Shown piece by piece: positions 31,646 to 58,870 of a stretch of DNA of 64,000 nt. The translations under genes were made by a program, and so were the position numbers. Origin of the DNA: Lysobacter sp. KIS68-7 (GTDB lineage Bacteria > Pseudomonadota > Gammaproteobacteria > Xanthomonadales > Xanthomonadaceae); NCBI RefSeq assembly GCF_021284745.1, contig NZ_CP089925.1, forward strand, positions 558,001-622,000, in the 5' to 3' direction. Position 1 is the stretch's first letter. Every line of letters starts with the position of its first letter. The notes under the pieces are model-generated. The model searched no databases. It worked only from the letters and a program-made list of their open reading frames with translations, and was not told the DNA's origin.

Positions 31646-32233
31646 CTACCACCGCCCCAAAACGTTCAACTCAGCCCCGGTGTAGATCACCTGGTATGCA
31701 AGCAAGCCGACTGCGAGCACCTGCTGGACGCGCCTGCTTTCCGAACGCATGCCGACGATCACGCCGACCGTCGTCGTCGTGAACCAGATCAGATACAAGG
31801 GACGAAACGCCCATGCACTGCTCTTCACCCAGGAATCGAGGATGTCCAGCACGTTGGCGACGATGATCATCGAGAAGAACCAACGCCTGTCGGCCATGAA
31901 CCACGCGTAGGAATCGTCGAGGTCCTTCATGCCGCGCGGCACGAGGATCACCGCGAGCAGGAACAGCACCATCGCGTACACCAGGACGAACAGGTACAGC
32001 CCGTACGTCCAGGTCGTGCCGAGCTCGTCGAATTTGAACTCCCACCACCAGAACGACACGATCCACACGAGCACGTAAGCGGCCCACGAGAGGAAGACCA
32101 CTTCCAGGTGGATCGGTTTGCCATGCCCGCGCAGCCGGTTCACCGCGACGCCGAGCGCAGCGAGGATGTGCCCGATCGCCAGGCCGACCACGATCGACAC
32201 CGGCGCCATCACGTAGTCGAACTGGTTGTTCAC
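31646..32233 (-). CDS. Multi-pass membrane protein of unknown function
   Basis: 195 residues with five or six membrane helices: YVMAPVSIVVGLAIGHILAALG, VVFLSWAAYVLVWIVSFWWWEF, WTYGLYLFVLVYAMVLFLLAVILVP, FFSMIIVANVLDILDSWV, PLYLIWFTTTTVGVIVGM and VLAVGLLAYQVIYTGAEL. The Trp-rich core and the MKDLDDSYAWFMADRRWFFS loop recur in uncharacterised proteins I cannot name. The start is GTG at 32233 with GGGGG upstream; the longer in-frame ORF enters the previous gene. It is the last gene of the 15-gene run, 40 bp after the second FAD oxidoreductase, so it may or may not belong functionally. Confidence 0.75.
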   Translation of the reverse strand: MNNQFDYVMAPVSIVVGLAIGHILAALGVAVNRLRGHGKPIHLEVVFLSWAAYVLVWIVSFWWWEFKFDELGTTWTYGLYLFVLVYAMVLFLLAVILVPRGMKDLDDSYAWFMADRRWFFSMIIVANVLDILDSWVKSSAWAFRPLYLIWFTTTTVGVIVGMRSESRRVQQVLAVGLLAYQVIYTGAELNVLGRW

Positions 32234-32273
32234 CGCTGCCCCCGCGCAGGTCACTGCCGGGGGAACGTGATGC

Positions 32274-33782
32274 TCAGGCTTTCTCGGCCAACACCTTCGT
32301 TGCCGCGTTGCGCCCGGCCGCACCGCTGATGCCTGCGCCGCCATGCACGCCGTTGCCGCACAGGTACAGGCCATCGATCGGCGTGGCGTGGTTCGACCAG
32401 CCCGGCAACGGGCGCATGAAGAACATCTGGTCGAGGATCAGCTGGCCGTGGTTGAGGTCGCCTTCGGTCAGCGCGTACTCGCGTTCCAGGTCCACCGGCG
32501 TGAGCGTGCGGACTTCGCGGATCGAGGACTTCAGCGAAGGGAACTGCTCCGCCAGCGTTTCGATCGCGATGCGTTCGACTTCCGCGTGCGCGTCGTTCCA
32601 GTTGGTGCCGCGCAGTTTGTACGGCGCAGACTGCATGTGGATCGAAACGACGTCGCCTGCGGTCGTGACTTCCAGGTAGGGCTTCTGCGCGAGCTCGCCG
32701 TACTTCGCCGCGTCGAACGCGCGCTCCAGGTACTTGAGCGTCGGCGCCAATGCGAGCGTGCCCGCCGGAATGCCATGACTTCCGTCCGTGCGCAGGTGCA
32801 CCTTCGCCAGCGAGCCGCGCATCTTGATCGACTGCACGTGCCAGACGAATTCGGTCGGCAGTTCGGGCGCGCCGACGAGCTTCAGCAGCGTGTTGCGCGG
32901 ATCGGCGGCGGAAAACACGTTCGCCGCGCGGATCTCTTCACCGTTCTCGAGTTGCACGCCCGCCGCGCGCGAACGCTCGACGAGGATGCGCTTCACGCCC
33001 GTGGCCGTGCGCAGCTCGCCGCCGTTCGCCTTGAGCGCCGCAACCAGCGCGTTGGCGATCTGCGCGCTGCCGCCCGCGCGATGCGCCAGGCCGCCGCGGT
33101 TGAGCCAGTTGTGCATCAGCGTGTAGCCGGTGCCCGCCGACATCGAACCAAGCGTGAAGCCATGGATGCCGACCGCGGCGATGGCGGCCTTCAGTTCCTC
33201 GGATTCGAACCACTCTTCGGTGAACTCCACCGTCGACATCGACATCATGCGGATGACGCGGAACATGTCCTTGCCACCGAGGCGACGCAGGGTCCATGCG
33301 AGCTTCGCCAACGGCCAGCCCTCGGCCAGCGTGACGTGCGGCAGGCGCGGCATCGGCGTGCGATACGCAGCGTCGAGGAACGCGGCGGCGCGGTCCATGA
33401 AGGCGACGAACTCGGGCCAGCGCTGAGCGTCGTTGGCGGAGAACTGACGAATGGATTCGCGCGTGGCGGCTTCGTTCGCCGTGTCGAGCACGAGGCGGCG
33501 GCCATCGGGCAGCAGCGAGACGTAAGGCGCGGGCTTGCCGGTCGCGAGCCCGTGCTTCGCCAGGTCTAGGTCGCGCACGATGTCCGGGCGCAACTGTCCA
33601 CCGGCATGCAGCGGATCGAAGGCGGCGCCGTCGAACGCTTCACCTGCGAGCTGTCCGCCCGCGCGATCGCGCCGTTCGAGCACCAGCACCTTCCTGCCGG
33701 CCTTCGCGAGGTAGTTCGCAGCGACCAGGCCGTTGTGGCCCGCGCCGACGATGATCGTGTCGTACTGCTTGTTCGCGCTCAT
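32274..33782 (-). CDS. NAD(P)/FAD-dependent oxidoreductase, CrtI/PYROXD2-like (copy 2)
   Basis: 502 residues. The N-terminal dinucleotide fold YDTIIVGAGHNGLVAANYLAKAGRKVLVLERRDRAGGQ binds FAD, and the C-terminus GWSNHATPIDGLYLCGNGVHGGAGISGAAGRNAA closes the flavin site, as in phytoene-desaturase-like amine oxidases and PYROXD2. It is a diverged paralogue of the gene three bases upstream; both share GAGHNGL and the C-terminal GGG(I/V)xGAAGxxAA block. No membrane anchor or signal peptide. Probably oxidises a C-N or C-C bond of an intermediate of the surrounding pathway; substrate unknown. Confidence 0.88.
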   Translation of the reverse strand: MSANKQYDTIIVGAGHNGLVAANYLAKAGRKVLVLERRDRAGGQLAGEAFDGAAFDPLHAGGQLRPDIVRDLDLAKHGLATGKPAPYVSLLPDGRRLVLDTANEAATRESIRQFSANDAQRWPEFVAFMDRAAAFLDAAYRTPMPRLPHVTLAEGWPLAKLAWTLRRLGGKDMFRVIRMMSMSTVEFTEEWFESEELKAAIAAVGIHGFTLGSMSAGTGYTLMHNWLNRGGLAHRAGGSAQIANALVAALKANGGELRTATGVKRILVERSRAAGVQLENGEEIRAANVFSAADPRNTLLKLVGAPELPTEFVWHVQSIKMRGSLAKVHLRTDGSHGIPAGTLALAPTLKYLERAFDAAKYGELAQKPYLEVTTAGDVVSIHMQSAPYKLRGTNWNDAHAEVERIAIETLAEQFPSLKSSIREVRTLTPVDLEREYALTEGDLNHGQLILDQMFFMRPLPGWSNHATPIDGLYLCGNGVHGGAGISGAAGRNAATKVLAEKA

Positions 33783-33785
33783 CGT

Positions 33786-35369
33786 TTACTTCCAATCCTT
33801 GAGGACTTCCTGTGCGGCCAGCTTGCCGGCCGCGCCCATGACGCCACCGCCCGGATGCGCGCCGGACGCGCCGAAGTAGTAACCCGGCAGCGGCGTGCGG
33901 AAATCGGCCCATTGCGGCGCCGGGCGCAGGAAGAACAATTGGTGCAGCAGCAATTCGCCGTGGAAAATGTTGCCGCCCGTGATGCCGGCGATCATCTCGA
34001 TGTCCTTCGGCGTGATCACCTGCTTGCCGACGATGGCGCGGCGGATGTTCGGCGCATAGCGCTCGATGGTGGAGATCACCGTCTCGCCGAAGGCATCGCG
34101 CTTGGCATCGTCCCAACCGCCTTCGATGTCGTAGGGCGCGTACTGCACGAAGCACGACATCACGTGGTGGCCCGGAGGCGCCATGTCGCGGTCGATCATC
34201 GAGGGGATGATCATGTCGATATAAGGGTTCTTCGCGAACTGGCCGTACTTCGCTTCATCGTAGGCGCGTTCGATGTATTCCATGCTCGGGCTGATCGAGA
34301 TCGCACCGCGATGCAACGGGCCTTCGCCCGGCAGGCAGGTGAAGTCCGGCAGCTCGCTGAGCGCGATGTTGACCTTGCCGGACGAGCCGCGCACACGGAA
34401 GTTCTTGATCTGCTCGACGAACTCGCCGGGCAGGTGCTTCTGCTCGACGAACTGCAGGAAGCTGCGCTTCGGGTCGGCGGCGGAGATGACGACCTTCGCC
34501 TGCAGCTCATCGCCGTTGGCCAGCGCCACGCCCGCGGCGCGGCCGCCCTTGACGATGACCTGCTGCACGGAGGCATTGGTGCGGATCTCGACGCCGAGCG
34601 CACGCGCGGAACTCGCGATCGCCTGCGTCACGCCGCCGTTGCCGTTCTTGCAGAAACCCCAGGCGCGGAACGCGCCGTCGATCTCACCCATGTAATGGTG
34701 CAGCAGCACGTAGGCCGTGCCCGGCGAATTCGGACCGAGGAAGGTGCCGATGATGCCGCTCGCCGACTTGGTGCCCTTGAGCGGATCGAATTCGAACCAG
34801 TCGTTAAGCAGGTCCGCCGCCGACTGCGTGAGCAGCTTGGCGATCTGGTACAGCTCCTTTTCCGACAGGCTCTTCGCGTACTGGCCGACCTTGAGCATGC
34901 GCAGCATGTCGCGCGGGCTCATCGACGAGGGATCCGGCGGTACCAGGCCGAGGATCGGTTTGATCGCCTTCGCGGCGCGCGCCATCACGCGGCCGTATTC
35001 GTCGCTCGCTTCGGCATCGCGCGGCGAGTGGCGATACAGCTCCTGACGCGTCAGGTCATGGTCGTCCCATGCGGCGAGGTAATCACCGTTGTCCATCGGC
35101 GTGACCGTGCTCGGCAGCGGCAGGATCTTCAAGCCGTGCCGCGGCAGTTCGAGGTCGCGGATGATCTCCGGACGCAGCAGGCTGACGACGTAGGAGAACT
35201 GGCTGAAGCGATAGCCGGGGAACGGTTCGGCCGTGACCGCGGCGCCGCCGACGACTTCGCGGCGTTCGAGTACGCAGACCTTCTTGCCCGCGCGTGCGAG
35301 GTAGGCCGCTGCGATCAGACCGTTGTGGCCGGCGCCGATGACGATGGCGTCGTATTGGTTGCTGCTCAT
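33786..35369 (-). CDS. NAD(P)/FAD-dependent oxidoreductase, CrtI/PYROXD2-like (copy 1)
   Basis: 527 residues. FAD-binding fold YDAIVIGAGHNGLIAAAYLARAGKKVCVLERREVVGGAA, middle region NSPGTAYVLLHHYMGEIDGAFRAWGFCKNGNGGVTQAIASSARALG, and C-terminal FRTPLPGYYFGASGAHPGGGVMGAAGKLAAQEVL. It resembles PYROXD2/beta-carotene-ketolase-like oxidoreductases. The ATG at 35369 overlaps the GcvT-like gene's stop by four bases, so the two are translated together. Along with copy 2 it may act on successive N-demethylated or unsaturated intermediates. A carotenoid role is unlikely because no other crt genes are nearby. Confidence 0.88.
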   Translation of the reverse strand: MSSNQYDAIVIGAGHNGLIAAAYLARAGKKVCVLERREVVGGAAVTAEPFPGYRFSQFSYVVSLLRPEIIRDLELPRHGLKILPLPSTVTPMDNGDYLAAWDDHDLTRQELYRHSPRDAEASDEYGRVMARAAKAIKPILGLVPPDPSSMSPRDMLRMLKVGQYAKSLSEKELYQIAKLLTQSAADLLNDWFEFDPLKGTKSASGIIGTFLGPNSPGTAYVLLHHYMGEIDGAFRAWGFCKNGNGGVTQAIASSARALGVEIRTNASVQQVIVKGGRAAGVALANGDELQAKVVISAADPKRSFLQFVEQKHLPGEFVEQIKNFRVRGSSGKVNIALSELPDFTCLPGEGPLHRGAISISPSMEYIERAYDEAKYGQFAKNPYIDMIIPSMIDRDMAPPGHHVMSCFVQYAPYDIEGGWDDAKRDAFGETVISTIERYAPNIRRAIVGKQVITPKDIEMIAGITGGNIFHGELLLHQLFFLRPAPQWADFRTPLPGYYFGASGAHPGGGVMGAAGKLAAQEVLKDWK

Positions 35370-36562
35370 TTCTTCTTCCACTCCGGCTCATAGAACGGCA
35401 GCTTCACGACCTTGCCAGGCGCCTGCAGGCGCTTGTGCTCGACGGTGACTTCCATCGTCAGCGCCGTGCCGGGTTCGTAATACGGTTTCTGCAAATGCAC
35501 CAGCGCGATGTAGGTCTTCAGCACCGGCGACCACGTGCTGGTCGATGCATAACCGACCTGCGTTTCACCCTGCTTCACCGGCAGGCTGCCGCGCACCGCC
35601 ATCGCGGGAATCTGCGGCGGCAAACCGACCTTCGCGAACAGCGGCTCCATGCCTGCCCAATCGACTTCGAAGCCCATGAGCTTCCACGCCGAACCCGCCT
35701 TCTGTTCGCGCTCCAGCGCGCGGCGGCCGACGAAGTAACCGGGCTTGTCCAGATGCACGGCCCAATCCAGGCCCATCTCCAGCGGCGAGGATTTCTGGCC
35801 TTCGATCCACGCGTGGTTGGCCGCGGTGTAGTCGACGTCGATCATGAACAGACCAGCCTCGACGCGCGCCATGTCCATCGCGAGGATGCCGCAGGGCACG
35901 ATGCCGTAGTCGCGGCCCGCTTCCATCAGCGCATCCCACACCGCCAATGCGTCGGCGACTTCCATCCAGATTTCGAAGCCGAGGTCGCCGGTGTAACCGG
36001 TGCGCGAGATCGTCACTTTCTTCCCGGCGAGCGTGTTCTCCATCACCCGGAAGTACTTCAGCTTGTCGAGCGTCTTGCCGCACACCTTGTTGAGCACGGT
36101 GCGCGCTTTCGGGCCCTGCAGGCTCAGCGCGCCCATCTTCTCGGTGACTTCGGTGATCGACACGTCCATGCCGACCGCGTTCATCGACAGCCAGCGCAAC
36201 GAGGGCTCGGCCGACGTGAGCCGGAATGTCTGCTCGCCCAGGCGCGAGATCGTGCCGTCGTCGAGCAGCTTGCCTTCGTCGTCGCACCAACCGGTGTAAC
36301 CGACCTGGCCGACGGCCATCTTGCCGATGTCGCGCGGCGTGAGCTTGTCGAGCAGGCGCGCGGCGTCGGGGCCTTCGATCATGTACTTCATCAAGGGCGA
36401 GACATCGATCAGCGCGACCGCGTCGCGAATCGCCCAGTACTCGCGTTCGACATGCAGGTCGTAGGAGCCGACCACGATGTGGCCGGCCCAGCGCCGCCAG
36501 TTCTGCGGCAGGCTGAGCTTCGACGTGCGCTCGTGGAAGGGCGTGTGTTTGAGCTGGAACAT
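35366..36562 (-). CDS. GcvT-like aminomethyltransferase family protein
   Basis: 398 residues. Folate-binding GcvT fold: VALIDVSPLMKYMIEGPDAARLLDKLTPRDIGKMAVGQVGYTGWCDDEGKLLDDGTISRL, then MGALSLQGPKARTVLNKVCG, ISRTGYTGDLGFEIWMEV, and the C-terminal barrel with GYFVGRRALEREQ and QVGYASTSTWSPVLKTYIALVHL. GcvT relatives pass one-carbon units from amines or methyl donors to tetrahydrofolate; the family includes glycine-cleavage T protein, DMSP demethylase DmdA and the O-demethylase LigM. No gcvH or gcvP is nearby, so ordinary glycine cleavage is unlikely. Placed between a Rieske oxygenase (23 bp upstream) and FAD oxidoreductases, it probably captures C1 units from a demethylation. Confidence 0.88.
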   Translation of the reverse strand: MFQLKHTPFHERTSKLSLPQNWRRWAGHIVVGSYDLHVEREYWAIRDAVALIDVSPLMKYMIEGPDAARLLDKLTPRDIGKMAVGQVGYTGWCDDEGKLLDDGTISRLGEQTFRLTSAEPSLRWLSMNAVGMDVSITEVTEKMGALSLQGPKARTVLNKVCGKTLDKLKYFRVMENTLAGKKVTISRTGYTGDLGFEIWMEVADALAVWDALMEAGRDYGIVPCGILAMDMARVEAGLFMIDVDYTAANHAWIEGQKSSPLEMGLDWAVHLDKPGYFVGRRALEREQKAGSAWKLMGFEVDWAGMEPLFAKVGLPPQIPAMAVRGSLPVKQGETQVGYASTSTWSPVLKTYIALVHLQKPYYEPGTALTMEVTVEHKRLQAPGKVVKLPFYEPEWKKK

Positions 36563-36585
36563 CGGGTTTTTGATTCCGGAATGGA

Positions 36586-37905
36586 TCAGGGGTGTTCCGA
36601 CATTTCGCAGGAACTGGTGCGGTGCGCGCGCACGGTGGGCGGCACCACGGTGAAATCGCCGGACAGCGCGTGCAGGTACCAATCGACGAAACGCTTGGGC
36701 GTGTCCTCGAATTCGGGATGTTGGGGGCCCGGCTCGAAGAAGCGCGAATTCACGCCCGCGGCATTGAGCGTCATGATCCGCTTGTCTTCCAGCGTGGTGA
36801 CGTGCCACAGCCACACCAGCTTCTCGCGGTCGTAGTCGACGCCTTCCACCGCATCGCCGTTGACGAACCAAACGATCTCCATGTCCGTCTTGTCCTTCCC
36901 GAAGGGGACGTAGCGGAACAGGATGCAGTGGTCCGGGTAGTTGAGCATGTAGGTCAGCGGGCCGAGCTGGTAGTCGCCCGCGCCGCCGTCGTAACCCTTG
37001 AACTCGCCCATCAGCGGCGCGACCGGCGTGCCGTCGCGGCTGCCCGTCACGTAGCCGTCGAACAAGGCATAGCGGCTCGTGTAGACGCAGGACCCGAAGC
37101 CCGGCGCCTCGCGGAACATGCGATACAGCGCTTTTTCGATGTCGTGCACGCCGGTCTCGCGCTCGGCGCGTTCCCACATCGCACGGTTGATCGGCGCGAC
37201 GACCGCTTCGCGTTCCTTGAAGGTGTGGAGCTTCGAGTACGCACGATGCGCGGTGTCGCAGTGGTAGCACTCGAGGTAGTTGCCCAGCGCGATCTTCCAG
37301 TTCGCGTCGACCGAATAGGTCTCGCGGTGCGCGATCTTCGCGTTCTCCAGGCGATACGGGCCAAGCTGCGCGTCGAGCTGCGCCAGCGCGACGTTGTAGT
37401 CGTAGGCGTCCGGATCGAAGTTGATGAAGATCAGGCCGAAGCGCACGGCCACGCGCGCCTGCTTCAGCCCGTGGTCTTCCTTGCGGAATTCCGGCATCGC
37501 ATCCATGTGGCGCGCTGCGCGCAGGCTGCCGTCGGTGCCGTACACCCAACCGTGGTACGGGCAGACGAAGGTCTTGCAGCTGCCCTGTCGTTCTTCGCAT
37601 ACACGCGAACCGCGGTGGCGGCAGGAATTGATCAGCGCGCGGATCTCGCCATCGTTGCCGCGCGCGACGATCACCGACTCCTCGCCGATCTCGTACAGGA
37701 AGTAATCGCCCGGATTCGGGACCTGGCTGACATGCCCCGCCCACAACCAGCTCTTGAAGAACAGGTTGTCGAGCTCCTGCTGGTACACCACCGAGGAGCG
37801 GTAGAAGTACTGCATGAGGCCGGCGTCGCGGTCGCGCATCTGCACGGCCACCGCTTCGCCCATGCGGGCGTGGTTGTCTTCGCTGTCGGCGACGAAAGTG
37901 TTCAT
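36586..37905 (-). CDS. Rieske non-haem iron oxygenase alpha subunit, quaternary-amine type
   Basis: 439 residues. The Rieske 2Fe-2S cluster is bound by Cys95 and His97 (SCRHRGS) and Cys115 and His118 (CPYHGW). The mononuclear iron site is in WKIALGNYLECYHCDTAH: Glu212, His215 and His220, spaced exactly as D205/H208/H213 of naphthalene dioxygenase but with Glu instead of Asp. That substitution is seen in carnitine oxygenase CntA, and the LECYHC string recurs in GbcA- and stachydrine-demethylase-like proteins. This points to a methylated amine or betaine rather than an aromatic ring. No ferredoxin or reductase is encoded in the window. It follows an APC permease by 12 bp. Confidence 0.9.
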   Translation of the reverse strand: MNTFVADSEDNHARMGEAVAVQMRDRDAGLMQYFYRSSVVYQQELDNLFFKSWLWAGHVSQVPNPGDYFLYEIGEESVIVARGNDGEIRALINSCRHRGSRVCEERQGSCKTFVCPYHGWVYGTDGSLRAARHMDAMPEFRKEDHGLKQARVAVRFGLIFINFDPDAYDYNVALAQLDAQLGPYRLENAKIAHRETYSVDANWKIALGNYLECYHCDTAHRAYSKLHTFKEREAVVAPINRAMWERAERETGVHDIEKALYRMFREAPGFGSCVYTSRYALFDGYVTGSRDGTPVAPLMGEFKGYDGGAGDYQLGPLTYMLNYPDHCILFRYVPFGKDKTDMEIVWFVNGDAVEGVDYDREKLVWLWHVTTLEDKRIMTLNAAGVNSRFFEPGPQHPEFEDTPKRFVDWYLHALSGDFTVVPPTVRAHRTSSCEMSEHP

Positions 37906-37917
37906 ATCTTCAGGATT

Positions 37918-39240
37918 TTAAGCCACTGCGGCTTCGCGGCGGCGACGCAGGAGCATGAGCACGTAGAGCGGAAGGCCCGCCGCCGCGAGCACCAGGCCCA
38001 GCATGAAGGGCTCGTGGCCCAGGCCGACGAAGGCGAAGGTCGCGTAGCCGGCGCCCAGCAGCGCGATCGGCAACATCCCGCGCACGCCGGCCTTGTCGCC
38101 GCGATGCCACAGCACCGCCAGGGCGAGCGAGCAGCACAGGTACAGGGGCAGGTTCGCCGCCGTCACCACCTTGGTGAGGAAGGTGAAGCCCTCCACCAGC
38201 GACTTGCTGTAACTCATCAGGACCATGCCGGTGCCGAGCACACCGGTGACCAAAAGCGCGATCGCAGGGGCGCCGCGGCCGTTGTTGCGCGCCAGCACCT
38301 TCGGCATCACGCCGTTGACCGCCATCGTGCGCGTGAGCTCGCCGACCAGCAGCGTCCACCCGTTGAGCGCGCCGAGGCCGCTCACGACCACGAACAGCGC
38401 GAGCCAGCGCCCGACGCCCGCACCCGCGAAGCGGTCCATCACCATCGCGAACGGCGCCGTGGCGCTGGCGAGTTCTTCCTGCGGGATCAGCATCATCGGG
38501 ACGGTCGACACGATGATGTAGACCACGGCGGTGAGCACCGTACCGGCGACCGTCGCGCGCGGAATGGTGCGTGCGGGGTCATGGACGCGCGAGGCCGGCA
38601 CGGTGGCCGACTCCAGGCCGAGCATCGCGAACAAGGCGATCGTCGAGGCGGTGACGATATCGCCCAGGTGCACGGGCGCGGTCGGCGGATGCGCGGTGTA
38701 GACCGCCGGCTGCGTGAGCAGCAACCAGATGCCGAGCAACGCGACGGCCACCATCGGCACGAGCTTGAGCGCGGTGGTCACCACCTGCACGCGGCCGCCG
38801 GTGCGCACGCCGAACAGGTTGACGATGACGAAAAACCACAGCAGCGCCAGCGCGACCAACGCCGGCGACATCGTCGCCACGGCGGGAAACACCGAGCCGA
38901 GGTAACCGACCACGCCGGTGGCGATCGCCGCGTTGGTGATCCACAGCGACACCCAGTAACACCAGATCGACAGGAACGCGGGGATGTCGCCGAGCGTCGC
39001 GCGGATGTAACCGTAAGGCCCGTCGGACTGCGGCATCTCGCGCGCCAGGCGCGCGAAGACCCGCGCGAGCGCCACGCAACCGAGCACCGTGACCAGCCAC
39101 CCGATCGTGGCATTGAACCCGTAGGGCGCCAGCGATGCCGGCAGGAGGAAGATGCCGATGCCGATCGTGTTGCCCACCACCAGCGCCGTGCACATCCAGA
39201 AGCCGAGCTTGCGCTGGCCGTTGTCGATCTCACTGCTCAT
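37918..39240 (-). CDS. APC-family amino acid/amine permease (AdiC/PotE-like)
   Basis: 440 residues, twelve membrane helices. The first helix LGFWMCTALVVGNTIGIGIFLLPASLAPYG carries the GxxxGxGIF substrate-binding break of APC transporters. ALFAMLGLESATVPASRVHDPARTIPRAT is the TM6 signature, with Glu in LGLESA. Closest in feel to AdiC/PotE/YjeM, which move basic amino acids or polyamines. It probably imports the operon's substrate or a periplasmic hydrolysis product across the inner membrane. Three bases separate it from the amidohydrolase gene. Confidence 0.92.
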   Translation of the reverse strand: MSSEIDNGQRKLGFWMCTALVVGNTIGIGIFLLPASLAPYGFNATIGWLVTVLGCVALARVFARLAREMPQSDGPYGYIRATLGDIPAFLSIWCYWVSLWITNAAIATGVVGYLGSVFPAVATMSPALVALALLWFFVIVNLFGVRTGGRVQVVTTALKLVPMVAVALLGIWLLLTQPAVYTAHPPTAPVHLGDIVTASTIALFAMLGLESATVPASRVHDPARTIPRATVAGTVLTAVVYIIVSTVPMMLIPQEELASATAPFAMVMDRFAGAGVGRWLALFVVVSGLGALNGWTLLVGELTRTMAVNGVMPKVLARNNGRGAPAIALLVTGVLGTGMVLMSYSKSLVEGFTFLTKVVTAANLPLYLCCSLALAVLWHRGDKAGVRGMLPIALLGAGYATFAFVGLGHEPFMLGLVLAAAGLPLYVLMLLRRRREAAVA

Positions 39241-48444: not shown

Positions 48445-49289
48445 GCGGCCCTCTTCTCCAGGCTCGCGAGGAAGCCCGCGTGGTCGGCGGTCTCCAGCAC
48501 GTGGCGTTGCATCCATGCCTGGAACACTTCGCGATTGCGGGCGATCGCATCCCACTGTTGGTAGAAGGCGTTGTCGCGTCCGTAGAAGCCATGCGCATAC
48601 GAGGGGTAGGCGCCACCCGGGCAATGCACCACCGCGCTGACGATGAAGTGCGGCAGCACGATCGCGTTCATCGCCGGCGACAGCGTGTCGACGATTTCTT
48701 CGACGGTGACGATCACGCGCGAGGCCGCCATCGCAGCTTCGCGCAATGCACCGACGATGCCGTGCAGCGCGACGTTGCCCGCGCGGTCCGCGCGTTGCGC
48801 GTGCAGGATCGTGACATCGGGATTCAACGCGGGCACCGCGGCCAGGCGCTCGCCGGTGAAGGGACATTCGACGCGGCGGATGCGTGGATTGACGTGGTCC
48901 AGGTCGTTGTCCAGATACCCGCGCAGCGTGCCGAACGGCAGGTGCGCCGCGCCCGCGCAGAAGGCCGCGGCCATGCCGGCGTGGCTGTGTTCGTCCAGTT
49001 CCAGCGGACGCGGCCACGCGTGCTCCACCGCATCGCGCAAGCGATGCAGCGACCCCACGCCCGGATTGCCCCCCCACGAGAACGTCAGCTTGCGCGCGCA
49101 GCCCATGCCGATCAGCTGGTCGTAGATCAGGTCCGGCGTCATGCGGATCAGGTGCAGGTCGCGCTTGCCCTGGCGGATCAGCTCATGGCCGGCCGCGAAT
49201 GGAATCAGGTGCGTGAAGCCTTCCAGCGCCACGCTGGCGCCGTCGGCGACATGGGTCTGGATCGCTTCGCGGAGCGAGGTCACAGGCAT
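48441..49289 (-). CDS. CoA-transferase subunit A (CatI/GctA-like)
   Basis: 282 residues. CoA-binding subunit: LREAIQTHVADGASVALEGFTHLIPFAAGHELIRQG, LIRMTPDLIYDQLIGMGCARKLTFSWGGNPGVGSL, CPFTGERLAAVPALNPDVTILHAQRADRAGNVALHG. The layout matches glutaconate/3-oxoadipate CoA-transferase A chains. Together with subunit B it transfers CoA from succinyl- or acetyl-CoA to an organic acid in the cytoplasm. Its start lies ten bases after the aldehyde dehydrogenase stop with only a weak ribosome site. Confidence 0.9.
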   Translation of the reverse strand: MPVTSLREAIQTHVADGASVALEGFTHLIPFAAGHELIRQGKRDLHLIRMTPDLIYDQLIGMGCARKLTFSWGGNPGVGSLHRLRDAVEHAWPRPLELDEHSHAGMAAAFCAGAAHLPFGTLRGYLDNDLDHVNPRIRRVECPFTGERLAAVPALNPDVTILHAQRADRAGNVALHGIVGALREAAMAASRVIVTVEEIVDTLSPAMNAIVLPHFIVSAVVHCPGGAYPSYAHGFYGRDNAFYQQWDAIARNREVFQAWMQRHVLETADHAGFLASLEKRAA

Positions 49290-52252: not shown

Positions 52253-52287
52253 GTGCGCTATGCGCACTCACTGTGCGTATTGCGCAC
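52253..52287. promoter_or_regulatory. Twin palindromic operators in the divergent promoter, probably for the IclR regulator
   Basis: Two 15-base sites, GTGCGCTATGCGCAC (52253-52267) and GTGCGTATTGCGCAC (52273-52287), share GTGCG-N5-CGCAC exactly and are 20 bases apart centre to centre, so they face the same side of the helix. They lie between the divergent aminotransferase (52214) and iclR (52350) genes. Tandem binding is usual for IclR-family tetramers. Confidence 0.82.
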
Positions 52288-52349
52288 CACTCTATGGAGC
52301 CCTTACCCTCGGCGTCAATCCACCGCAAACAGGGATGCCAGGGACCAGC

Positions 52350-53165
52350 ATGGCCAAGGCAGTGCGCAACGACCCGACGTTCGAGGACAGCCGCGATTAC
52401 GTGCAGTCCCTGGCCCGCGGCTTGTCCGTGCTGCGTGCGTTCGATGCGGAGAACACACGCCTGAGCCTGGCCGACATCGCCGCACGCACCTCAATGTCGC
52501 GCGCCGCTGCGCGTCGGCTGGTGATGACGCTGGAACACCTGGGCTACGTGCGCAGCGGCGGCCGCGAATACGTGCTGAGCCCCAGCGTGCTCGAGCTCGG
52601 CTTCGGCTACCTCGGCTCGCTCAACCTCACCGACCTCGCCCAGCCCCTGCTGGAAGATCTCGCGCGCACCGTCAACCAGAGCAGTTCGATGGCGGTGCTG
52701 GAAGGCCAGTCGATCGTGTACGTGCTGCGCGTGCCGGGCCGCCGGATCATGAGCGTGACGCTCGGGGTCGGCGCACGCTTGCCGGCGTTTTCCGCTTCGA
52801 TGGGGCGCGTGCTGCTGTCGGGCCTGGACAATGCCGCGCTCGACCAGTGGATGGGCGACTGCCGGCCGATCGCGCACACGCCGCATACCGTCACCGATAC
52901 GCGCCGGCTGCGTCGCATCGTCGACGAGGTGCGCGCACAGGGGTACGCCTACGTCGAACAGGAACTCGAACTCGGGTTGTGCTCGGTCGCCGTGCCGGTG
53001 CACAACGCCGATGGCCGCATCGCCACGGCGATCAACGTGAGCATGCCCTACCACCCGGATGCCGGGCGCGAGGCGCTGGCCACGGTCCTGCCGCAACTGA
53101 AGCTCACTGCATCCGCCATCGAGCACTGCATGCCGTCGCATCGCCTGCCCGCCGTGAGCCCGTGA
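52350..53165 (+). CDS. IclR-family transcriptional regulator (PcaR-like)
   Basis: 271 residues. N-terminal winged helix (YVQSLARGLSVLRAFDAENTRLSLADIAARTSMSRAAARRLVMTLEHLGYV) and C-terminal IclR effector domain (SSMAVLEGQSIVYVLRVPGRRIMSVTLGVGARLPAFSASMGRVLLSGL, QGYAYVEQELELGLCSVAVPVHNADGRIATAINVSMP). The YVQSLxRGLxVLxAF opening and general run resemble PcaR/PobR regulators of 3-oxoadipate metabolism, matching the CoA-transferase and thiolase nearby. The ATG at 52350 has AGGG at good spacing; an ATG at 52335 is the alternative. Probably senses an intermediate and controls both divergent operons. Confidence 0.93.
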   Translation: MAKAVRNDPTFEDSRDYVQSLARGLSVLRAFDAENTRLSLADIAARTSMSRAAARRLVMTLEHLGYVRSGGREYVLSPSVLELGFGYLGSLNLTDLAQPLLEDLARTVNQSSSMAVLEGQSIVYVLRVPGRRIMSVTLGVGARLPAFSASMGRVLLSGLDNAALDQWMGDCRPIAHTPHTVTDTRRLRRIVDEVRAQGYAYVEQELELGLCSVAVPVHNADGRIATAINVSMPYHPDAGREALATVLPQLKLTASAIEHCMPSHRLPAVSP

Positions 53166-53175
53166 GCCGGGCCGC

Positions 53176-54363
53176 ATGAAGGGGGCGCGCGCGGTCTATC
53201 TCTGCGACGGCGTGCGCACGCCGTTCGGCCGCTATCGCGGCGGCCTGTCTTCGATCCGCACCGACGATCTCGCGGCACTTCCGCTGCGGCAGTTGATGGA
53301 ACGCCATCCGGGGCTTGCCGAGAAGATCGACGAGGTCATCCTCGGGTGCGCCAACCAATCCGGCGAGGACAACCGCAACGTCGCCCGCATGGCGGCGTTG
53401 CTCGCGGGGCTGCCCGTGTCGGTGCCTGGCGTGACGGTGAATCGCCTGTGCGCCTCGGGCCTGGAAGCGGTGGGCCAGGCGGCGCGCGCGATTGCGCTCG
53501 GCGAGGCGGAGCTGGTGCTGGCCGGCGGCGTGGAAGGCATGTCGCGCGCGCCCTACGTGATGGGCAAGGCCGACGTGCCGTTCGGGCGCGAGCAGAAACT
53601 CGAGGACACCACGCTGGGCTGGCGCTTCGTCAATCCGGCGATGGCGGCGCTGCACGGCGTGGATTCGATGGCGCAGACCGCGGAAAACCTCGCGCGCGAA
53701 CACGGCATCGCCCGCGCCGACCAGGATGCATTCGCATGGCGGTCGCAGCAGCGCGCCGCGCGCGCGATCGCCAGCGGTCGCCTCGCCGAAGAACTCATGT
53801 CCGTGGGCAAGTGCGTCGCCGACGAACAACCGCGCCCCGACTCCACGCCGGACAAGCTCGCCACGCTCTCGCCCCTGCTCGGCGCTGACGGCACGATCAC
53901 CGCAGGCAACGCCTCCGGCCTCAACGACGGCGCCTGCGCGCTGTTGCTCGCCTCCGAAGAGGCCGTGGCACGTTTTGGCCTGGTGCCCCGTGTCCGCGTG
54001 CTCGGCATGGCGGCCGCCGGCGTGCCGCCGCGCACCATGGGCATCGGTCCGGTCCCGGCCATCGGGCGATTGTTCAAACGCCTGGATTGCAACCTGGAGG
54101 CCTTCGATCGCATCGAGATCAATGAAGCATTCGCCGCGCAGGTGCTGGCCTGCACGCGCGCCCTGGGGCTGGCCGACGACGCCGATCGGGTCAATCCGAA
54201 CGGCGGCGCGCTGGCCCTCGGGCATCCGCTCGGCGCAAGCGGTGCACGATTGGTGCTGACAGCGATGCACGATCTACAGCATGCTGCACGCGACCGGGCC
54301 CTGGTCGCGATGTGTGTCGGCGTGGGCCAGGGGGTGGCTTTCGCCATGGAGCGCGTGCGATGA
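53176..54363 (+). CDS. Acetyl-CoA acyltransferase (thiolase), PcaF-like
   Basis: 395 residues. Nucleophile Cys in VNRLCASGLEAVGQAARAI, then VLAGGVEGMSRAPYVMGK, the His/Asn region RIEINEAFAAQVLA and NPNGGALALGHPLGASGARLV, and the second Cys in VAMCVGVGQGVAFAME. The Ser-Arg-Ala-Pro motif and length fit 3-oxoadipyl-CoA thiolases such as PcaF, but substrate chain length cannot be fixed. It would cleave a 3-oxoacyl-CoA to acetyl-CoA and a shortened acyl-CoA. It follows iclR by ten bases and overlaps the TPR-sulfotransferase by four. Confidence 0.93.
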   Translation: MKGARAVYLCDGVRTPFGRYRGGLSSIRTDDLAALPLRQLMERHPGLAEKIDEVILGCANQSGEDNRNVARMAALLAGLPVSVPGVTVNRLCASGLEAVGQAARAIALGEAELVLAGGVEGMSRAPYVMGKADVPFGREQKLEDTTLGWRFVNPAMAALHGVDSMAQTAENLAREHGIARADQDAFAWRSQQRAARAIASGRLAEELMSVGKCVADEQPRPDSTPDKLATLSPLLGADGTITAGNASGLNDGACALLLASEEAVARFGLVPRVRVLGMAAAGVPPRTMGIGPVPAIGRLFKRLDCNLEAFDRIEINEAFAAQVLACTRALGLADDADRVNPNGGALALGHPLGASGARLVLTAMHDLQHAARDRALVAMCVGVGQGVAFAMERVR

Positions 54364-56273
54364 ACACGGTGTCCGAAACGACTGCTTCGCTCGATGTCGC
54401 GCTGGCGCATACCTCGCGCCTGCTCGGCACGGACCCTGCGCTTGCCGCTGAACAGGCCAACGAGATCCTGCGTGTCGTCGGTGCGCATCCCACGGCCACG
54501 CTGTTGCTCGGGCTTGCCCTGGATCGGACGGGTCGCGCGGACGAAGCCCTGGTGGCGCTCAAGCGCGCGGTCTCGCTCGATCCTGCGCAGCCGGGCGCCT
54601 GGCTCGCCCTGGCCGACCACCTGGCCGCGACCGGCGACGCCGCCGGCGCCGATGACGCCTACGTCCGCTACGTGGCCCGCGCCAATCGCGACCCCGCCCT
54701 CATGCAGGCCGGCGCCGCGCTCGCCGCCAATCGCCTGCCGGAAGCCGAGTCGCTGCTGCGCGCGCGCCTGGAGCGCCTGCCCACCGACGTCGCCGCGATG
54801 CGCATGCTCGCCGAACTCGCCGCGCGCCTGGGCCGCAGCGAAGATGCCGAACACCTGCTCGCGCGCGCACTGGAACTCGCACCGGGCTTCCACGCCGCGC
54901 GCCAGCACTACGCGCTGGTCCTGTACCGCGGCAACAAGCCGACCGAAGCGCTGGCGGAAGTCGACACGCTGCTGCGCCTGGACCCGAACAACCCCGGCTA
55001 TCGCAACCTGAAGGCCGTGGTGCTGTGCCGCATCGGCGACTTCGCGCCCGCGCTCGAGATCTACGCCGACATCCTGCGCCAGCATCCGGGCCAGACGAAG
55101 ATCTGGATGAGTTACGGGCACGCGCTCAAGACCGCCGGACGCCAGGACGACGCGATCGCCGCCTATCGTCGTTGCATCGCGCTCGATGCGTCCTTCGGCG
55201 AAGCGTGGTGGAGCCTGGCGAACCTGAAGACCTTCCGCTTCGAAGCGGACGATCTCGCGCTGATGCGCCGCCAGCTCGCGAACGAATCGCTCGCCGTCGA
55301 ACACCGCCTGCACCTCGGCTTCGCGCTGGGCAAGGCGCTGGAGGACACGGAAGCGTTCGCCGAATCCTTCGCGCATTACGACAAGGGCAATGCGCTGCGC
55401 CGCGGCCAGCTCATGTACACGCCCGAAGACAACACCTCGCGCGTGCGCAAGATCAAGCGCAGCTACACGCGCGAGTTCTTTGCCGAACGTGCAGGCAGCG
55501 GCTGCCAGGCCGCCGATCCGATCTTCATCGTCGGCATGCCGCGCGCCGGCTCCACGCTGATCGAACAGATCCTCTCGAGCCATTCGGCGGTCGAGGGCAC
55601 GATGGAACTGCCCGAGATCATTTCGATGACGCGCGACCTGCGCCGCCAGGTCGACGCCGGGCAGGCACATCCGTACCACGACGCGCTCGCCGCGCTCGAC
55701 GGCGACGCGCTGCGCGCGCTCGGCGAGCATTACCTGGAACGCACGCGCATCCACCGCAAGACCGGTGCGCCGCGTTTCATCGACAAGATGCCGAACAACT
55801 TTGCGCACATCGGCCTGATCCAGCTGGTGCTGCCCAACGCGAAGATCATCGACGCACGCCGGCACCCGCTCGCGTGCTGCTTCTCGAACTTCAAGCAGCA
55901 CTTCGCCCGCGGGCAGGCCTTCAGCTACGGGCTCGACGACCTCGGCCGCTATTACGCCGACTACGTCGAGCTCATGGCGCACTTCGACGCCGTGCTGCCC
56001 GGCCGCGTCCATCGCGTGGTGTACGAGCGCATGGTCGAGGACACCGAGGCCGAAGTGCGCCGCCTGCTCGACTACTGCGGCCTGCCGTTCGAAGAGCAGT
56101 GCCTGCGCTTCTACGAAAACGACCGCCCTGTGCGCACCGCGAGTTCCGAACAGGTGCGCCGGCCCATCTATCGCGACGGCGTCGACCAATGGCGCCATTA
56201 CGAACCCTGGCTCGAACCGCTGAAGGCGGCGCTGGGCCCCGTGTTGGAGGCATACCCCGAAGCACCGTTCTGA
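54360..56273 (+). CDS. TPR-repeat sulfotransferase
   Basis: 637 residues. About ten TPR-like helical repeats (1-340; for example GRADEALVALKRAVSLDPAQPGAWLALADHLAATGD and GNKPTEALAEVDTLLRLDPNNPGYRNLKAVVLCRIGD) precede a sulfotransferase domain. The 5'-phosphosulfate loop IFIVGMPRAGSTLIEQIL lies at about 388-405, and RFIDKMPNNFAHIGLIQLVLPNAKIIDARRHPLACCFS gives the 3'-phosphate region. It should use PAPS to sulfate an acceptor, or be a degenerate relative. No signal peptide. It overlaps the thiolase and precedes a TonB receptor by 38 bp; such TPR-sulfotransferase/receptor pairs recur in related bacteria (from memory). Confidence 0.9.
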   Translation: MNTVSETTASLDVALAHTSRLLGTDPALAAEQANEILRVVGAHPTATLLLGLALDRTGRADEALVALKRAVSLDPAQPGAWLALADHLAATGDAAGADDAYVRYVARANRDPALMQAGAALAANRLPEAESLLRARLERLPTDVAAMRMLAELAARLGRSEDAEHLLARALELAPGFHAARQHYALVLYRGNKPTEALAEVDTLLRLDPNNPGYRNLKAVVLCRIGDFAPALEIYADILRQHPGQTKIWMSYGHALKTAGRQDDAIAAYRRCIALDASFGEAWWSLANLKTFRFEADDLALMRRQLANESLAVEHRLHLGFALGKALEDTEAFAESFAHYDKGNALRRGQLMYTPEDNTSRVRKIKRSYTREFFAERAGSGCQAADPIFIVGMPRAGSTLIEQILSSHSAVEGTMELPEIISMTRDLRRQVDAGQAHPYHDALAALDGDALRALGEHYLERTRIHRKTGAPRFIDKMPNNFAHIGLIQLVLPNAKIIDARRHPLACCFSNFKQHFARGQAFSYGLDDLGRYYADYVELMAHFDAVLPGRVHRVVYERMVEDTEAEVRRLLDYCGLPFEEQCLRFYENDRPVRTASSEQVRRPIYRDGVDQWRHYEPWLEPLKAALGPVLEAYPEAPF

Positions 56274-56311
56274 GCCACTTCGTTTTGTTCAACTATCTGG
56301 GAGGGAGTTGG

Positions 56312-58825
56312 ATGCATCGTTCACGTCAGACACCGCAGCGCAACCGGGCGAACCTGACCCGTTTGCCACTCGCGGCCGCGATCTACCTCGCCTTCGGCAC
56401 TGCGTTCGCGCAGGACGCCGCGGCGCAGCAGGATCCGGCACAACAGTCCACGCAACCGGCGACCACCACGCAGACCGCGCCGGCGCAAAAACAGGCGGTG
56501 CTCGAAACCGTCACCGTCACGGCGCAGAAGCGTACGGAAGACGTCCAGAAGGTGCCGATCAGCATCCAGGTGCTCGGCCAGCAGAAGCTCAACGAGCTCG
56601 ACCTCCAGGACTTCAGCGACTACGCGCCCTTCATCCCGGCCTTGTCGTTCGACACGGGTGAAGGCGGCGGCTCGGTGCCGTACTTCCGCGCGGTCGCCAG
56701 CGGCGAAAACAGCAACCACTCCGGCCCGCAGCCGAGCGTGGGCGTGTACCTCGACGAACAACCGGTGACGACCATCGGCGGCGTGCTCGACGTGCACCTG
56801 TACGACATCGACCGCGTCGAAGCACTCGCCGGCCCGCAGGGCACGCTGTACGGCGCAAGCTCGCAGGCCGGTACGCTGCGCATCATCACCCGCAAGCCCG
56901 ATCCGACCGGCTTCTCCGCCGGCTATGCGATCGGCGCGAACGGCATGACGGGCGGCGACATGGGCTGGGGCCTGGATGCCTTCGTCAACGTTCCCTTCTC
57001 CAAGGACATCGCGCTGCGCGTCGTCGCCTGGGACAAGAAGGACTCCGGTTACGTCGACAACGTCCCCGCCACGCGCACCTTCCCGTCCTGGAACGCCGAT
57101 TCCGGCGGCAATGGCACCATCACCAACGTCGGCACGGTGGCGGAAAGCAACTACAACGACGTGTTCACCCGTGGCGCCCGCGCCGCGCTGCGCTTCAACA
57201 TCGGTGAGAACTGGACCATCACGCCCGGCGTGATGACGCAGAAGCAGGACTCCTACGGCAACTTCTCCAGCGACGACCACCTCGGCCGGTACAAGGTCAA
57301 CAAGTACTACCCCGAGTTCGCGCACGACGACTGGACGCAGGCCTCGCTGACGGTCGAAGGCAAGATCGGCAACTTCGACCTGACCTACGCCTACGCCCAC
57401 CTCAAGCGCGACATCGATTCGGCCGCGGACTACTCCGACTACTCGTTCTGGTACGACACGCTGGACGGGTCCGGCGCGTACTTCTACGACGACTCCGGCG
57501 CGCTGATCAATCCGTCGCAGGTCATCTGGGGCGACGACCGCTTCACCCTGTCGAGCCACGAACTGCGCATCGCATCGCCCGCCGACCAGCCGTTCCGCTT
57601 CGTCGCCGGCCTGTTCTGGCAGAAGCAGACGCACGACATCCTGCAGCGCTACCTGACAGTCGGCGACCTGGCCACGCCCCTGGAAGTGGCAGGCTGGACC
57701 GACACCATCTGGCTGACGCAGCAGGGCCGCCGCGACCAGGACGACGCGATCTTCGGTGAAATGTCGTACGACTTCACCGATCACTGGACCGGTACCGTCG
57801 GCGCGCGCCACTTCAGCTACGACAACAACCTGCGTGGCTTCTTCGGCTACAGCGATGGCTACAGCAGCCACTACGGCGTGGCGCTGTGCTTCAACGACAT
57901 GCAGTTCCGCGGCGCGCCGTGTGTGAACCTGGACAACACGGTCAAGAAGAGCGACACGGTCTATCGCGCGAACCTGACCTACAAGTTCGACGACCACAAG
58001 CTGGTGTACGGCACCTGGTCGGAGGGCTACCGTCCCGGCGGCCTGAACCGCAACGGCACCGTTCCGCCGTACCTGCCCGACTACCTGACCAACTGGGAAC
58101 TCGGTTGGAAGACGACCTGGCAGGACAATCGCCTGGCCTTCAACGGCGCGATCTTCCAGGAGAACTGGGACGACATCCAATACTCGTTCCTGCCTCCGAG
58201 CGGCTCGGGCCTGACGGTGATCCGCAATGCAGGCAACGCACGCATCCGCGGCATCGAAATGGATGCGAACTGGGCGGCGACCTACAACCTGCTGCTCAGT
58301 GGCGGCATGGCGTTCTACAAGGCGGAGCTCACGAAGCCTTACTGCGGTTTCAACGACCTCGCCGGCAATCCGGTGAAGGAGTGCCCGGCCGGCACGGTCA
58401 ACCCGAACGACCCGAACGATCCGGATGACGATGAGATCGTCGACGGGCCGCAGGCGCCGGTCGGGACGCGACTGCCGGTGACGCCGCGCTACAAGGGCAA
58501 CCTGACGGCGCGCTACTCGTTCGACATCGGCGAGTACGAGTCCTACGTGCAGGGTGCCGGGGTGTATGTCGGCGATCGCCGTGCGGCGTTGATCCGCGAG
58601 GACTTCGACGCCTACGGCAACCTCGCTGCGTACACGCAGGTCGACTTCGCGGCGGGCATCCGCCGCGGCAACTGGTCGATCGATTTCTTCCTGAAGAATG
58701 CGTTCAACGAAGCGGCCCAGCTGTCGCGCTTCTCGCAGTGCGCCACGGACACTTGCGGCTTCCAGCCGTACACGGTCCACAGCGCACCGCGTTCGTTCGG
58801 CCTCCGCTTCTCGCAGGAATTCTGA
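56312..58825 (+). CDS. TonB-dependent outer-membrane receptor
   Basis: 837 residues. Signal peptide (LPLAAAIYLAFGTAFAQ), a Gln/Thr/Ala linker and a TonB box-like VLETVTVTAQKRTEDVQKVPISI. The plug has SVGVYLDEQPVTTIGGVLDVHLYDIDRVEALAGPQGTLYGASSQAGTLRIITRKP. The barrel ends APRSFGLRFSQEF with a C-terminal Phe. It imports a large or scarce ligand with energy from TonB/ExbBD. A disulfide-capable insert (YCGFNDLAGNPVKECPAG) and an Asp/Asn/Pro run (NPNDPNDPDDDE) suggest calcium-binding loops. It is the last gene of the iclR operon, followed by a terminator. The ligand is probably the substrate of the divergent operon. Confidence 0.95.
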   Translation: MHRSRQTPQRNRANLTRLPLAAAIYLAFGTAFAQDAAAQQDPAQQSTQPATTTQTAPAQKQAVLETVTVTAQKRTEDVQKVPISIQVLGQQKLNELDLQDFSDYAPFIPALSFDTGEGGGSVPYFRAVASGENSNHSGPQPSVGVYLDEQPVTTIGGVLDVHLYDIDRVEALAGPQGTLYGASSQAGTLRIITRKPDPTGFSAGYAIGANGMTGGDMGWGLDAFVNVPFSKDIALRVVAWDKKDSGYVDNVPATRTFPSWNADSGGNGTITNVGTVAESNYNDVFTRGARAALRFNIGENWTITPGVMTQKQDSYGNFSSDDHLGRYKVNKYYPEFAHDDWTQASLTVEGKIGNFDLTYAYAHLKRDIDSAADYSDYSFWYDTLDGSGAYFYDDSGALINPSQVIWGDDRFTLSSHELRIASPADQPFRFVAGLFWQKQTHDILQRYLTVGDLATPLEVAGWTDTIWLTQQGRRDQDDAIFGEMSYDFTDHWTGTVGARHFSYDNNLRGFFGYSDGYSSHYGVALCFNDMQFRGAPCVNLDNTVKKSDTVYRANLTYKFDDHKLVYGTWSEGYRPGGLNRNGTVPPYLPDYLTNWELGWKTTWQDNRLAFNGAIFQENWDDIQYSFLPPSGSGLTVIRNAGNARIRGIEMDANWAATYNLLLSGGMAFYKAELTKPYCGFNDLAGNPVKECPAGTVNPNDPNDPDDDEIVDGPQAPVGTRLPVTPRYKGNLTARYSFDIGEYESYVQGAGVYVGDRRAALIREDFDAYGNLAAYTQVDFAAGIRRGNWSIDFFLKNAFNEAAQLSRFSQCATDTCGFQPYTVHSAPRSFGLRFSQEF

Positions 58826-58837
58826 GTCGCACCATCG

Positions 58838-58870
58838 CCGGCGGCGGCTTCGGCCGCCGCCGGTTTTTTT
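58838..58870 (+). terminator. Intrinsic terminator after the TonB receptor gene
   Basis: An eleven-base perfect stem (CCGGCGGCGGC, 58838-58848) with a TTCG tetraloop is followed by seven T. It closes the iclR-thiolase-sulfotransferase-receptor operon. Confidence 0.93.

Follow-up and report, generated by a model that had tools for sequence, protein, structure and literature searches.

Which compound is broken down by the proteins encoded between positions 31,646 and 58,870 of a 64,000-nucleotide stretch (the window) of the genome of Lysobacter sp. KIS68-7 (contig NZ_CP089925.1, positions 558,001 to 622,000), and do these genes form one system? The genome consists of one contig of 3,251,132 bases. 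The original prediction, made from the letters of the window, described two divergent gene series under one IclR-family regulator, leading from the uptake of an amide-linked substrate, bearing an amino group and an N-methyl-type group, to acetyl-CoA. The present analysis indicates that this is a real, conserved, and probably new catabolic unit. Its lower end is assigned by sequence relationships as a β-ketoadipate cassette, an identity that the original prediction did not contain and that narrows the chemistry. The reading tentatively preferred, which still falls short of probable, is that of one catabolic unit with a PcaR-like regulator, acting on an amide-bound, basic, and probably N-methylated substrate for which a compound of the β-lysine type would be the best fit.

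The lower cassette includes two proteins encoded on the plus strand. The 3-oxoadipyl-CoA thiolase (53176-54363) scores above the cut-off of the PcaF equivalog model TIGR02430 (613 vs 597 bits), and the IclR-family regulator (52335-53165) above that of TIGR02431, the model of the PcaR/PcaU/PobR subfamily (292 vs 284.75 bits). A proposed β-ketoadipate CoA-transferase is encoded on the minus strand by genes for subunit A (48441-49289) and subunit B (47635-48444; PF01144, 126 bits to GctB 1poi). A search of plasmids with subunit A gave 147 matching records, the identity being 60-80% in 104, and the two plasmid neighbourhoods that were read (69.7% and 63.8% identity) are both annotated pca clusters, one of them with the consecutive gene order IclR-CoAA-CoAB-PcaF. 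The two subunits score below the cut-offs of the classic PcaI and PcaJ models, as expected for the Gct-like form (PMC4682078). According to the available part of that report, this form was identified by deletion and complementation as the β-ketoadipate succinyl-CoA transferase of Xanthomonas campestris, and Lysobacter is listed among its carriers (PMC4682078).

These genes stand in a tightly packed block. With recomputed starts, fifteen minus-strand genes extend from 52214 to 31646, as originally described; the spacing at their 14 junctions lies between -4 and +40 bp, so that the limit of 40 bp held, although ten junctions, and not nine, are of 5 bp or less. Read from the regulator outwards, they encode a class III aminotransferase (AT2), an aldehyde dehydrogenase (ALDH), CoA-transferase subunits A and B, a second class III aminotransferase (AT1), four hydrolases (PHP, S9, S58, and the amidohydrolase AMH), an APC permease, a Rieske oxygenase, a GcvT-fold protein, two flavoproteins (FAD2 and FAD1), and a small membrane protein. 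The divergent plus-strand series comprises the regulator, the thiolase, a TPR-repeat sulfotransferase-domain protein (54360-56273; PF13469 and TPR models), and a TonB-dependent outer-membrane receptor (56309-58825; PF00593, PF07715). All families named in the original prediction agree with these assignments. The distance between the AT2 start and the IclR start at 52335 is 120 bp, and the 135 bp first given are approximately reached with an inner ATG of IclR. The extent of the block changes at both ends: an M20 peptidase gene (58891-60294, plus strand; PF01546), 65 bp after the TonB receptor, lies beyond the interval first given and is conserved along with the unit, and the small membrane protein (31646-32233; no family), which had been included, probably lies outside the unit; of the three Lysobacter relatives, one was found to have it, as the last gene of the row. 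The flanks are a MarR/HPPD gene pair on one side and a POT transporter/tryptophan-dioxygenase pair on the other. A simple codon-position G+C filter, applied to the longest open reading frames, was passed by 12 of the 15 minus-strand genes; the GcvT, AT1, and CoA-transferase B genes failed because their longest frames carry long upstream extensions, and inner starts were assigned to them.

By its Rieske protein, this genome is closest, among named ones, to those of Lysobacter gilvus, L. lactosilyticus, and L. dokdonensis. All three share with the window the order from AT2 to FAD1, the order from IclR onward, and the flanks; the L. dokdonensis contig stops inside the thiolase gene, and the other two are syntenic through the M20 gene, which keeps its window position in both, and the POT gene. 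In another genome of the genus (G274), neither an ALDH orthologue (best 34% identity) nor a Rieske match at the limit used was found. A sampled search at class level returned ALDH only from the own genome (1 of 274), and its distribution emerged from the search of the order, where it occurs in 20 of 397 genomes, the own included, with the other 19 at 64-80% identity. Stretches of 30-50 kb were read from 18 of these 19, the remaining one being a 4.9-kb contig only. The 18 sister genomes were selected through ALDH, so that only the genes around it are informative: in all 18, AT2-ALDH-CoAA-CoAB-AT1 keep this order on one strand and IclR lies on the opposite one; S9, AMH, and the TPR-sulfotransferase also occur in 18, the thiolase and APC in 17, and S58 in 15. 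PHP was found in 14, one of these apparently just a weak 25% match, M20 in 16 (37-42% identity, at a place different from that in the window), and the TonB receptor in 12, the stretch possibly stopping short in the other six. The block from AT2 to APC, together with the plus-strand genes, is thus a conserved unit, and the earlier claim of a single unit stood, with synteny in all three named Lysobacter genomes, as far as the truncated L. dokdonensis contig shows, and the core in all 18 genomes read. Its parts belong to known families; for their combination, and for a β-ketoadipate cassette without adjacent aromatic genes, open-access literature searches found no description. On the degradation of β-lysine or 3-aminoadipate, PMC9854754 has the term solely in the title of a cited reference.

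The kinship of the regulator has a counterpart in the DNA between the two series. The promoter region between AT2 and IclR contains two palindromes 20 bp apart, GTGCGCTATGCGCAC (52253-52267, plus strand) and GTGCGTATTGCGCAC (52273-52287, plus strand). The three Lysobacter relatives keep the pair as it stands in the window, apart from a single base in L. lactosilyticus. Two sister genomes, G282 and G655, keep it with a spacing of 19 bp, and in the 16 other sister clusters the same promoter place holds boxes resembling GTTCGATAATCGAAC, followed by TTCGTATTGCGAAC, exact in 15 of the 16 (read by eye). The available text of PMC12455658 and PMC8222616 gives GTTCGATAATCGCAC as the PcaR site, TTTGTTCGATWATCGMACAMA plus an external half-site as the PcaU site, and GTNCG-N5-6-CGNAC as the consensus of the group; β-ketoadipate and succinate are both named there as PcaR signals (PMC12455658). 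Both boxes of the window match this consensus, and the PcaU core is matched exactly by the first box of five of the 16 sister clusters. Genome-wide, the exact window pattern occurs at three sites, two of them in this promoter; with at most one mismatch, 20 matches were found at 14 places, and six with a reversed control pattern. The suggestion of one regulator for two divergent transcripts is supported by the conserved paired palindromes between them, which are putative operators.

The enzymes above the cassette give hints of a basic amino compound, which may be released from an amide. AT2 (50865-52214), a proposed β-transaminase, has taurine:2-oxoglutarate aminotransferase 6jix as best solved relative (265 bits), AT1 (46289-47638) is of the acetylornithine/ornithine type (NF004426, 585 bits, cut-off 552), and ALDH (49300-50868) is near L-glutamate-γ-semialdehyde (Δ1-pyrroline-5-carboxylate, P5C) dehydrogenase, whose cut-off it does not reach (NF002852, 382 of 648 bits); all three share a gene row with the CoA-transferase. 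The permease (37918-39240) resembles basic amino acid/polyamine antiporters (TIGR00905, 275.5 bits, below the cut-off of 409). The hydrolases are a PD40-propeller protein with a CehA/McbA-family (PHP) metallohydrolase domain (43756-46284; NF038032, 229.5 bits, cut-off 80), an S9 prolyl-oligopeptidase-like enzyme (41762-43756; PF00326), an S58 (P1) aminopeptidase of the DmpA/BapA family (40569-41762; PF03576), and the amidohydrolase dipeptidase AMH (39244-40572; NF051886, 539 bits, cut-off 500), each with a signal-like N-terminus, that is, a hydrophobic stretch judged by eye without a predictor. The name Xaa-Pro dipeptidase, which NCBIfam gives to AMH, was not taken at face value because its nearest solved relative is the L-arginine carboxypeptidase Cc2672 (333 bits). 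The solved relatives of S58 are 5tzb (322 bits), 1b65 (318 bits), and the BapA-type 3n2w (284 bits). The permease family, the ornithine-type AT1, the arginine-carboxypeptidase-like AMH, and a histamine-dehydrogenase-like enzyme of sister clusters (see below) are together hints of a basic amine.

Relatives of these enzymes on plasmids are more distant: ALDH was matched in 12 records at 37-44% identity, AT2 at no more than 44% among the 20 listed of 32 records, and AT1 at no more than 51% among the 20 listed of 72. In three of four plasmid ALDH neighbourhoods read, an FAD-binding oxidoreductase is encoded nearby, as is an aminotransferase (class III or "aspartate family"), and the fourth lacks this set; neither the CoA-transferase pair nor the thiolase was seen in any of these four of the 12. 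A Mesorhizobium plasmid (NZ_AP023251.1; locus L134, 8845-18478) carries a distant ALDH together with an aminotransferase, an FAD oxidoreductase, a Rieske oxygenase with a reductase, and an amidohydrolase, and is possibly a simpler cousin of the system in the window. Homarine catabolism was considered as a lead and set aside; no paper recognised as having the present gene set was found for it.

The same enzymes could belong to an island for scavenging peptides and amino acids, in which exported peptidases feed ornithine, lysine, γ-aminobutyrate (GABA), or β-alanine inward and the CoA-transferase and thiolase accept generic β-keto acids. The peptidase families are indeed broad, the transaminases match many GABA and ornithine models, and the block is bordered by genes for a POT transporter and tryptophan dioxygenase. 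This explanation is nevertheless unlikely, because the thiolase and regulator pass cut-offs specific for the β-ketoadipate pathway, the promoter has operator-like sites of the PcaR/PcaU type, and a unit so well conserved is at the same time rare, with ALDH in 20 of the 397 genomes searched in the order.

At the far end of the minus-strand series lies the part that suggests N-demethylation. The Rieske oxygenase (36586-37905) falls in the glycine-betaine/stachydrine demethylase group, below the GbcA equivalog cut-off (281 of 670 bits), and its best solved relatives are 3n0q, 3vca, and 4qup, the last two of which we take to be stachydrine demethylases. The GcvT-fold, folate-dependent demethylase-like protein (35366-36562; PF01571, 203 bits) is nearest to models of trimethylamine N-oxide demethylase, GcvT, and dimethylsulfoniopropionate demethylase, all below cut-off, and its Asp-Asp motif, which presumably has a functional role in GcvT, is invariant in five of five aligned sequences. 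FAD2 (33786-35369; PF01593) and FAD1 (32274-33782; PF01593, 69 bits; paired with FAD2 in relatives) are flavoproteins of the CrtI/amine-oxidase type. An AlphaFold model of FAD2 (38-row alignment, mean pLDDT 86.7) has the carotenoid desaturase 4rep as closest solved fold (TM 0.75); an archaeal oxidoreductase, phytoene desaturase, and nicotine oxidoreductase come next, and putrescine oxidase ranks lower, an order that makes a role as amine oxidase possible.

These four genes also travel without the rest of the cluster. A Rieske search of named genomes gave at least 554 stretches with a relative, of which the best 80 loci (L033-L112) were kept; a GcvT gene lies within 10 kb on the same strand in 67 of them, and the two FAD relatives are present as well in 58. 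Judging by record titles, most of these loci are from OM60/NOR5 bacteria (Halieaceae, Luminiphilus), SAR92, Porticoccaceae, and other marine gammaproteobacteria. One genome (G290) and one metagenome contig (L036) have Rieske-GcvT-FAD2-FAD1 at 69-95% identity, and no ALDH orthologue was found in either (best about 31-34%). A Rieske match (E <= 1e-60) occurred in 31 of 299 genomes, own included, and the sole overlap with the 20 ALDH genomes was the window's own; seven of these 20 lie outside the 299-genome draw and were checked at the locus only. The Rieske-GcvT-FAD2-FAD1 end is, consequently, a separable module, common in marine gammaproteobacteria. The expected co-occurrence of the two halves of the block thus held for the AT2-to-APC genes with the plus-strand genes and failed for this end, which stands apart in G290, L036, and marine bacteria. 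In a few marine loci, a second GcvT-FAD-FAD set is encoded on the opposite strand (L043:17184-21238, and likewise L038, L039, and L044).

In the sister clusters the oxidative end is different. GcvT-FAD2-FAD1 occur in only two of the 18 (G282 and G655), where a Rieske gene of another kind, 32% identical to that of the window, lies beyond FAD1. In the other 16, the Rieske protein is encoded between S9/S58 and AMH, with 29-33% identity to that of the window, and GcvT and FAD genes are lacking in the stretches read; these 16 Rieske proteins are 77-100% identical to that of G239, for which carnitine monooxygenase is the best solved relative (154 bits). An additional flavoprotein gene follows APC in 15 of the 18 (e.g. 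L198:4851-6926; in two pieces in G246), and its product has histamine dehydrogenases (785 bits) and then trimethylamine dehydrogenase (576 bits) as best solved relatives. Among ten genomes tested at E <= 1e-40, the histamine-dehydrogenase-like gene was not found in eight, including those of the window, the three Lysobacter, G282, and G655, and was present in both sister-cluster genomes of the set; it was not found together with GcvT-FAD2-FAD1 in any of the ten. In two Luminiphilus metagenome-assembled genomes (L105:7604-9607 and L112:15766-17769), a gene whose product is 48% identical to the sister-cluster enzyme lies near a second Rieske gene and a FAD-GcvT-Rieske module, so both oxidative sets can sit together. 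The own genome carries, outside the cluster, a second Rieske gene (C1:1775004-1776296; L212) whose product is 55% identical to the sister-cluster Rieske. A one-mismatch operator-like site lies about 300 bp upstream of it; this gene is not claimed for the regulon because the site falls, by our reading, inside a pcm-like coding frame.

The position of the Rieske protein near the stachydrine demethylases 3vca and 4qup also bears on a second explanation, in which the substrate is a peptide-bound α-amino acid betaine such as proline betaine or trimethyllysine, the core performs demethylation and P5C-type oxidation, and the β-ketoadipate cassette is a mere neighbour or serves a side product. The closeness of ALDH to P5C dehydrogenase, the Xaa-Pro dipeptidase name of AMH, and the carnitine-oxygenase-like Rieske of the sister clusters are in its favour. 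It has to contend with the location of CoAA-CoAB between ALDH and AT1, on one strand, in all 18 genomes read, and with the fact that no steps from α-amino acids to 3-oxoadipate are known to us, and it is distinctly unlikely.

Marine copies of the demethylation module suggest yet another origin. Neighbours were scanned in three loci: in L043 (module at 5473-11269) the nearby genes encode PurU, which exceeds its cut-off, and a binding protein resembling PotF (329 of 636 bits), in L103 an agmatinase, likewise above its cut-off, and a protein similar to γ-glutamylputrescine synthetase (210 of 650 bits), and in L106 an S58 peptidase and an amidohydrolase. PurU near the module fits methyl groups entering the folate pool and, with the Rieske proteins near GbcA or carnitine monooxygenase, is a hint of an N-methylated substrate. 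Catabolism of polyamines or N-methylated polyamines would agree with the neighbours in L043 and L103 and with a permease of the polyamine/basic type; it appears quite improbable for the window, given that the polyamine routes we know of do without a 3-oxoadipate cassette and that the exported peptidases would have no explanation.

An aromatic source, in which the Rieske enzyme would hydroxylate an aromatic amine or an amide resembling anthranilate, with the genes for ring cleavage located elsewhere, is very improbable, for although there are weak anthranilate and benzoate dioxygenase matches, HPPD and tryptophan dioxygenase genes near the block, and one isolated intradiol dioxygenase in the own genome (with no pca genes seen around it, neighbours judged by eye), no protein of this genome reaches the PcaB cut-off (best 104 of 356 bits) or matches muconolactone isomerase (PF02426), the Rieske protein reaches 281 bits with GbcA and at most 125 bits with any aromatic-ring model listed, and two transaminases and ALDH would be left over. 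From the lack of PcaB over cut-off and of muconolactone isomerase, it follows that 3-oxoadipate probably derives from the action of the two transaminases and the P5C-dehydrogenase-like ALDH.

Under the preferred reading, of one unit for a β-lysine-type compound, the TonB receptor would bring the substrate into the periplasm, where the S9, S58, PHP, and AMH hydrolases (and M20) would release the amino compound for import by the APC permease. The Rieske oxygenase would act with GcvT, FAD2, and FAD1 to remove N-methyl groups and pass their carbon to tetrahydrofolate. AT1 would then convert the ω-amino group into an aldehyde, ALDH would oxidize this to a dicarboxylic β-amino acid, AT2 would yield 3-oxoadipate, and the CoA-transferase and PcaF would produce succinyl-CoA and acetyl-CoA. 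On paper, β-lysine (3,6-diaminohexanoate) would thus pass through 3-amino-6-oxohexanoate and 3-aminoadipate to 3-oxoadipate. The logic of the original prediction, from uptake to acetyl-CoA, is hereby supported, and so, as something we infer, is its amide-linked, amine-bearing, and probably N-methylated substrate. A bolder version is rather doubtful: that N-methylated, amide-bound β-lysine-type compounds, such as soil peptide antibiotics or their fragments, are channelled into the β-ketoadipate pathway under PcaR-type regulation borrowed from aromatic catabolism, with demethylation by a new four-protein system (Rieske, GcvT, and twin CrtI-like flavoproteins) also common in marine OM60/NOR5 and SAR92 bacteria.

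Several observations weigh against the preferred reading. We know of no N-methylated β-lysine that serves as a substrate, and of no compound shown to enter this pathway. AT2, ALDH, GcvT, and Rieske reach none of the cut-offs set for the specific NCBIfam models listed, the S58 enzyme is closer to DmpA/D-aminopeptidase than to BapA, and the intradiol dioxygenase keeps an aromatic origin of 3-oxoadipate in play. No reductase that could serve the Rieske protein is encoded among the genes of the cluster, and the own genome has one PF00970 match. The first box differs from the PcaU core by 1-4 bases in 11 of the 16 sister clusters, and window patterns with up to two mismatches are not rare within the window (nine matches; mean of shuffled controls 3.5, with nine reached in 4 of 100 shuffles). 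The additional flavoprotein of the sister clusters is named in NCBIfam only as mycofactocin-OYE (376 of 793 bits), and all 15 of its sequences have Asp at the position corresponding to Trp355 of trimethylamine dehydrogenase, a residue that suggests primary-amine oxidation rather than demethylation at this histamine-dehydrogenase-like step.

Among known systems, some share the methylated-amine side of the proposal. GbcA, Stc2, and CntA, acting on glycine betaine, stachydrine, and carnitine, are alike in Rieske subgroup and in the proposed chemistry, whereas the Rieske protein of the window has no adjacent reductase, is partnered by GcvT and two CrtI-like flavoproteins, and stays below the GbcA cut-off. 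As in the folate-linked N-demethylases of the dimethylglycine dehydrogenase type, demethylation with capture by folate is predicted for the unit in the window, which encodes a GcvT-fold protein. No assigned substrate for the Rieske-GcvT-flavoprotein module, common as it is in marine bacteria, was found in open-access literature searches; the Lysobacter cluster occurs in cultured hosts and leads to a specific prediction of its chemistry. DmpA and BapA resemble the S58 enzyme in family and overall length, DmpA the more closely; cleavage of N-terminal β-amino acids, the activity that defines BapA, may be considered a candidate activity of the S58 enzyme.

On the amino acid side, ornithine is converted into glutamate by ornithine δ-aminotransferase and P5C dehydrogenase, the families to which AT1 and ALDH are nearest; the proposed route would be one carbon longer, with an amino group in the β position, and would end at 3-oxoadipate. 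The fermentation of lysine through β-lysine, with the acyl-CoA β-transaminase Kat, is similar in its logic of β-amino acid, class III transaminase, CoA-transferase, and thiolase but, as far as the available text describes it, is fermentative, based on an aminomutase, operates at the level of acetoacetyl-CoA, and uses other enzymes (PMC3149608).

A further likeness is to the lower β-ketoadipate pathway. The regulator subfamily, operator type, CoA-transferase form, and thiolase are those of the X. campestris system, as far as the available text describes it (PMC4682078), and of pca clusters in Azospirillum and Pseudomonas. The block in the window differs from them in that it lacks genes for ring cleavage, PcaB, PcaC, and PcaD and has instead two transaminases, ALDH, exported hydrolases, and a TonB receptor. 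If the proposal is true, the names "pca" or "glutaconate CoA-transferase" mislead in such genomes, and the β-ketoadipate pathway, known to us only as the end of aromatic breakdown, would also serve a nitrogen-rich, amide-bound substrate.

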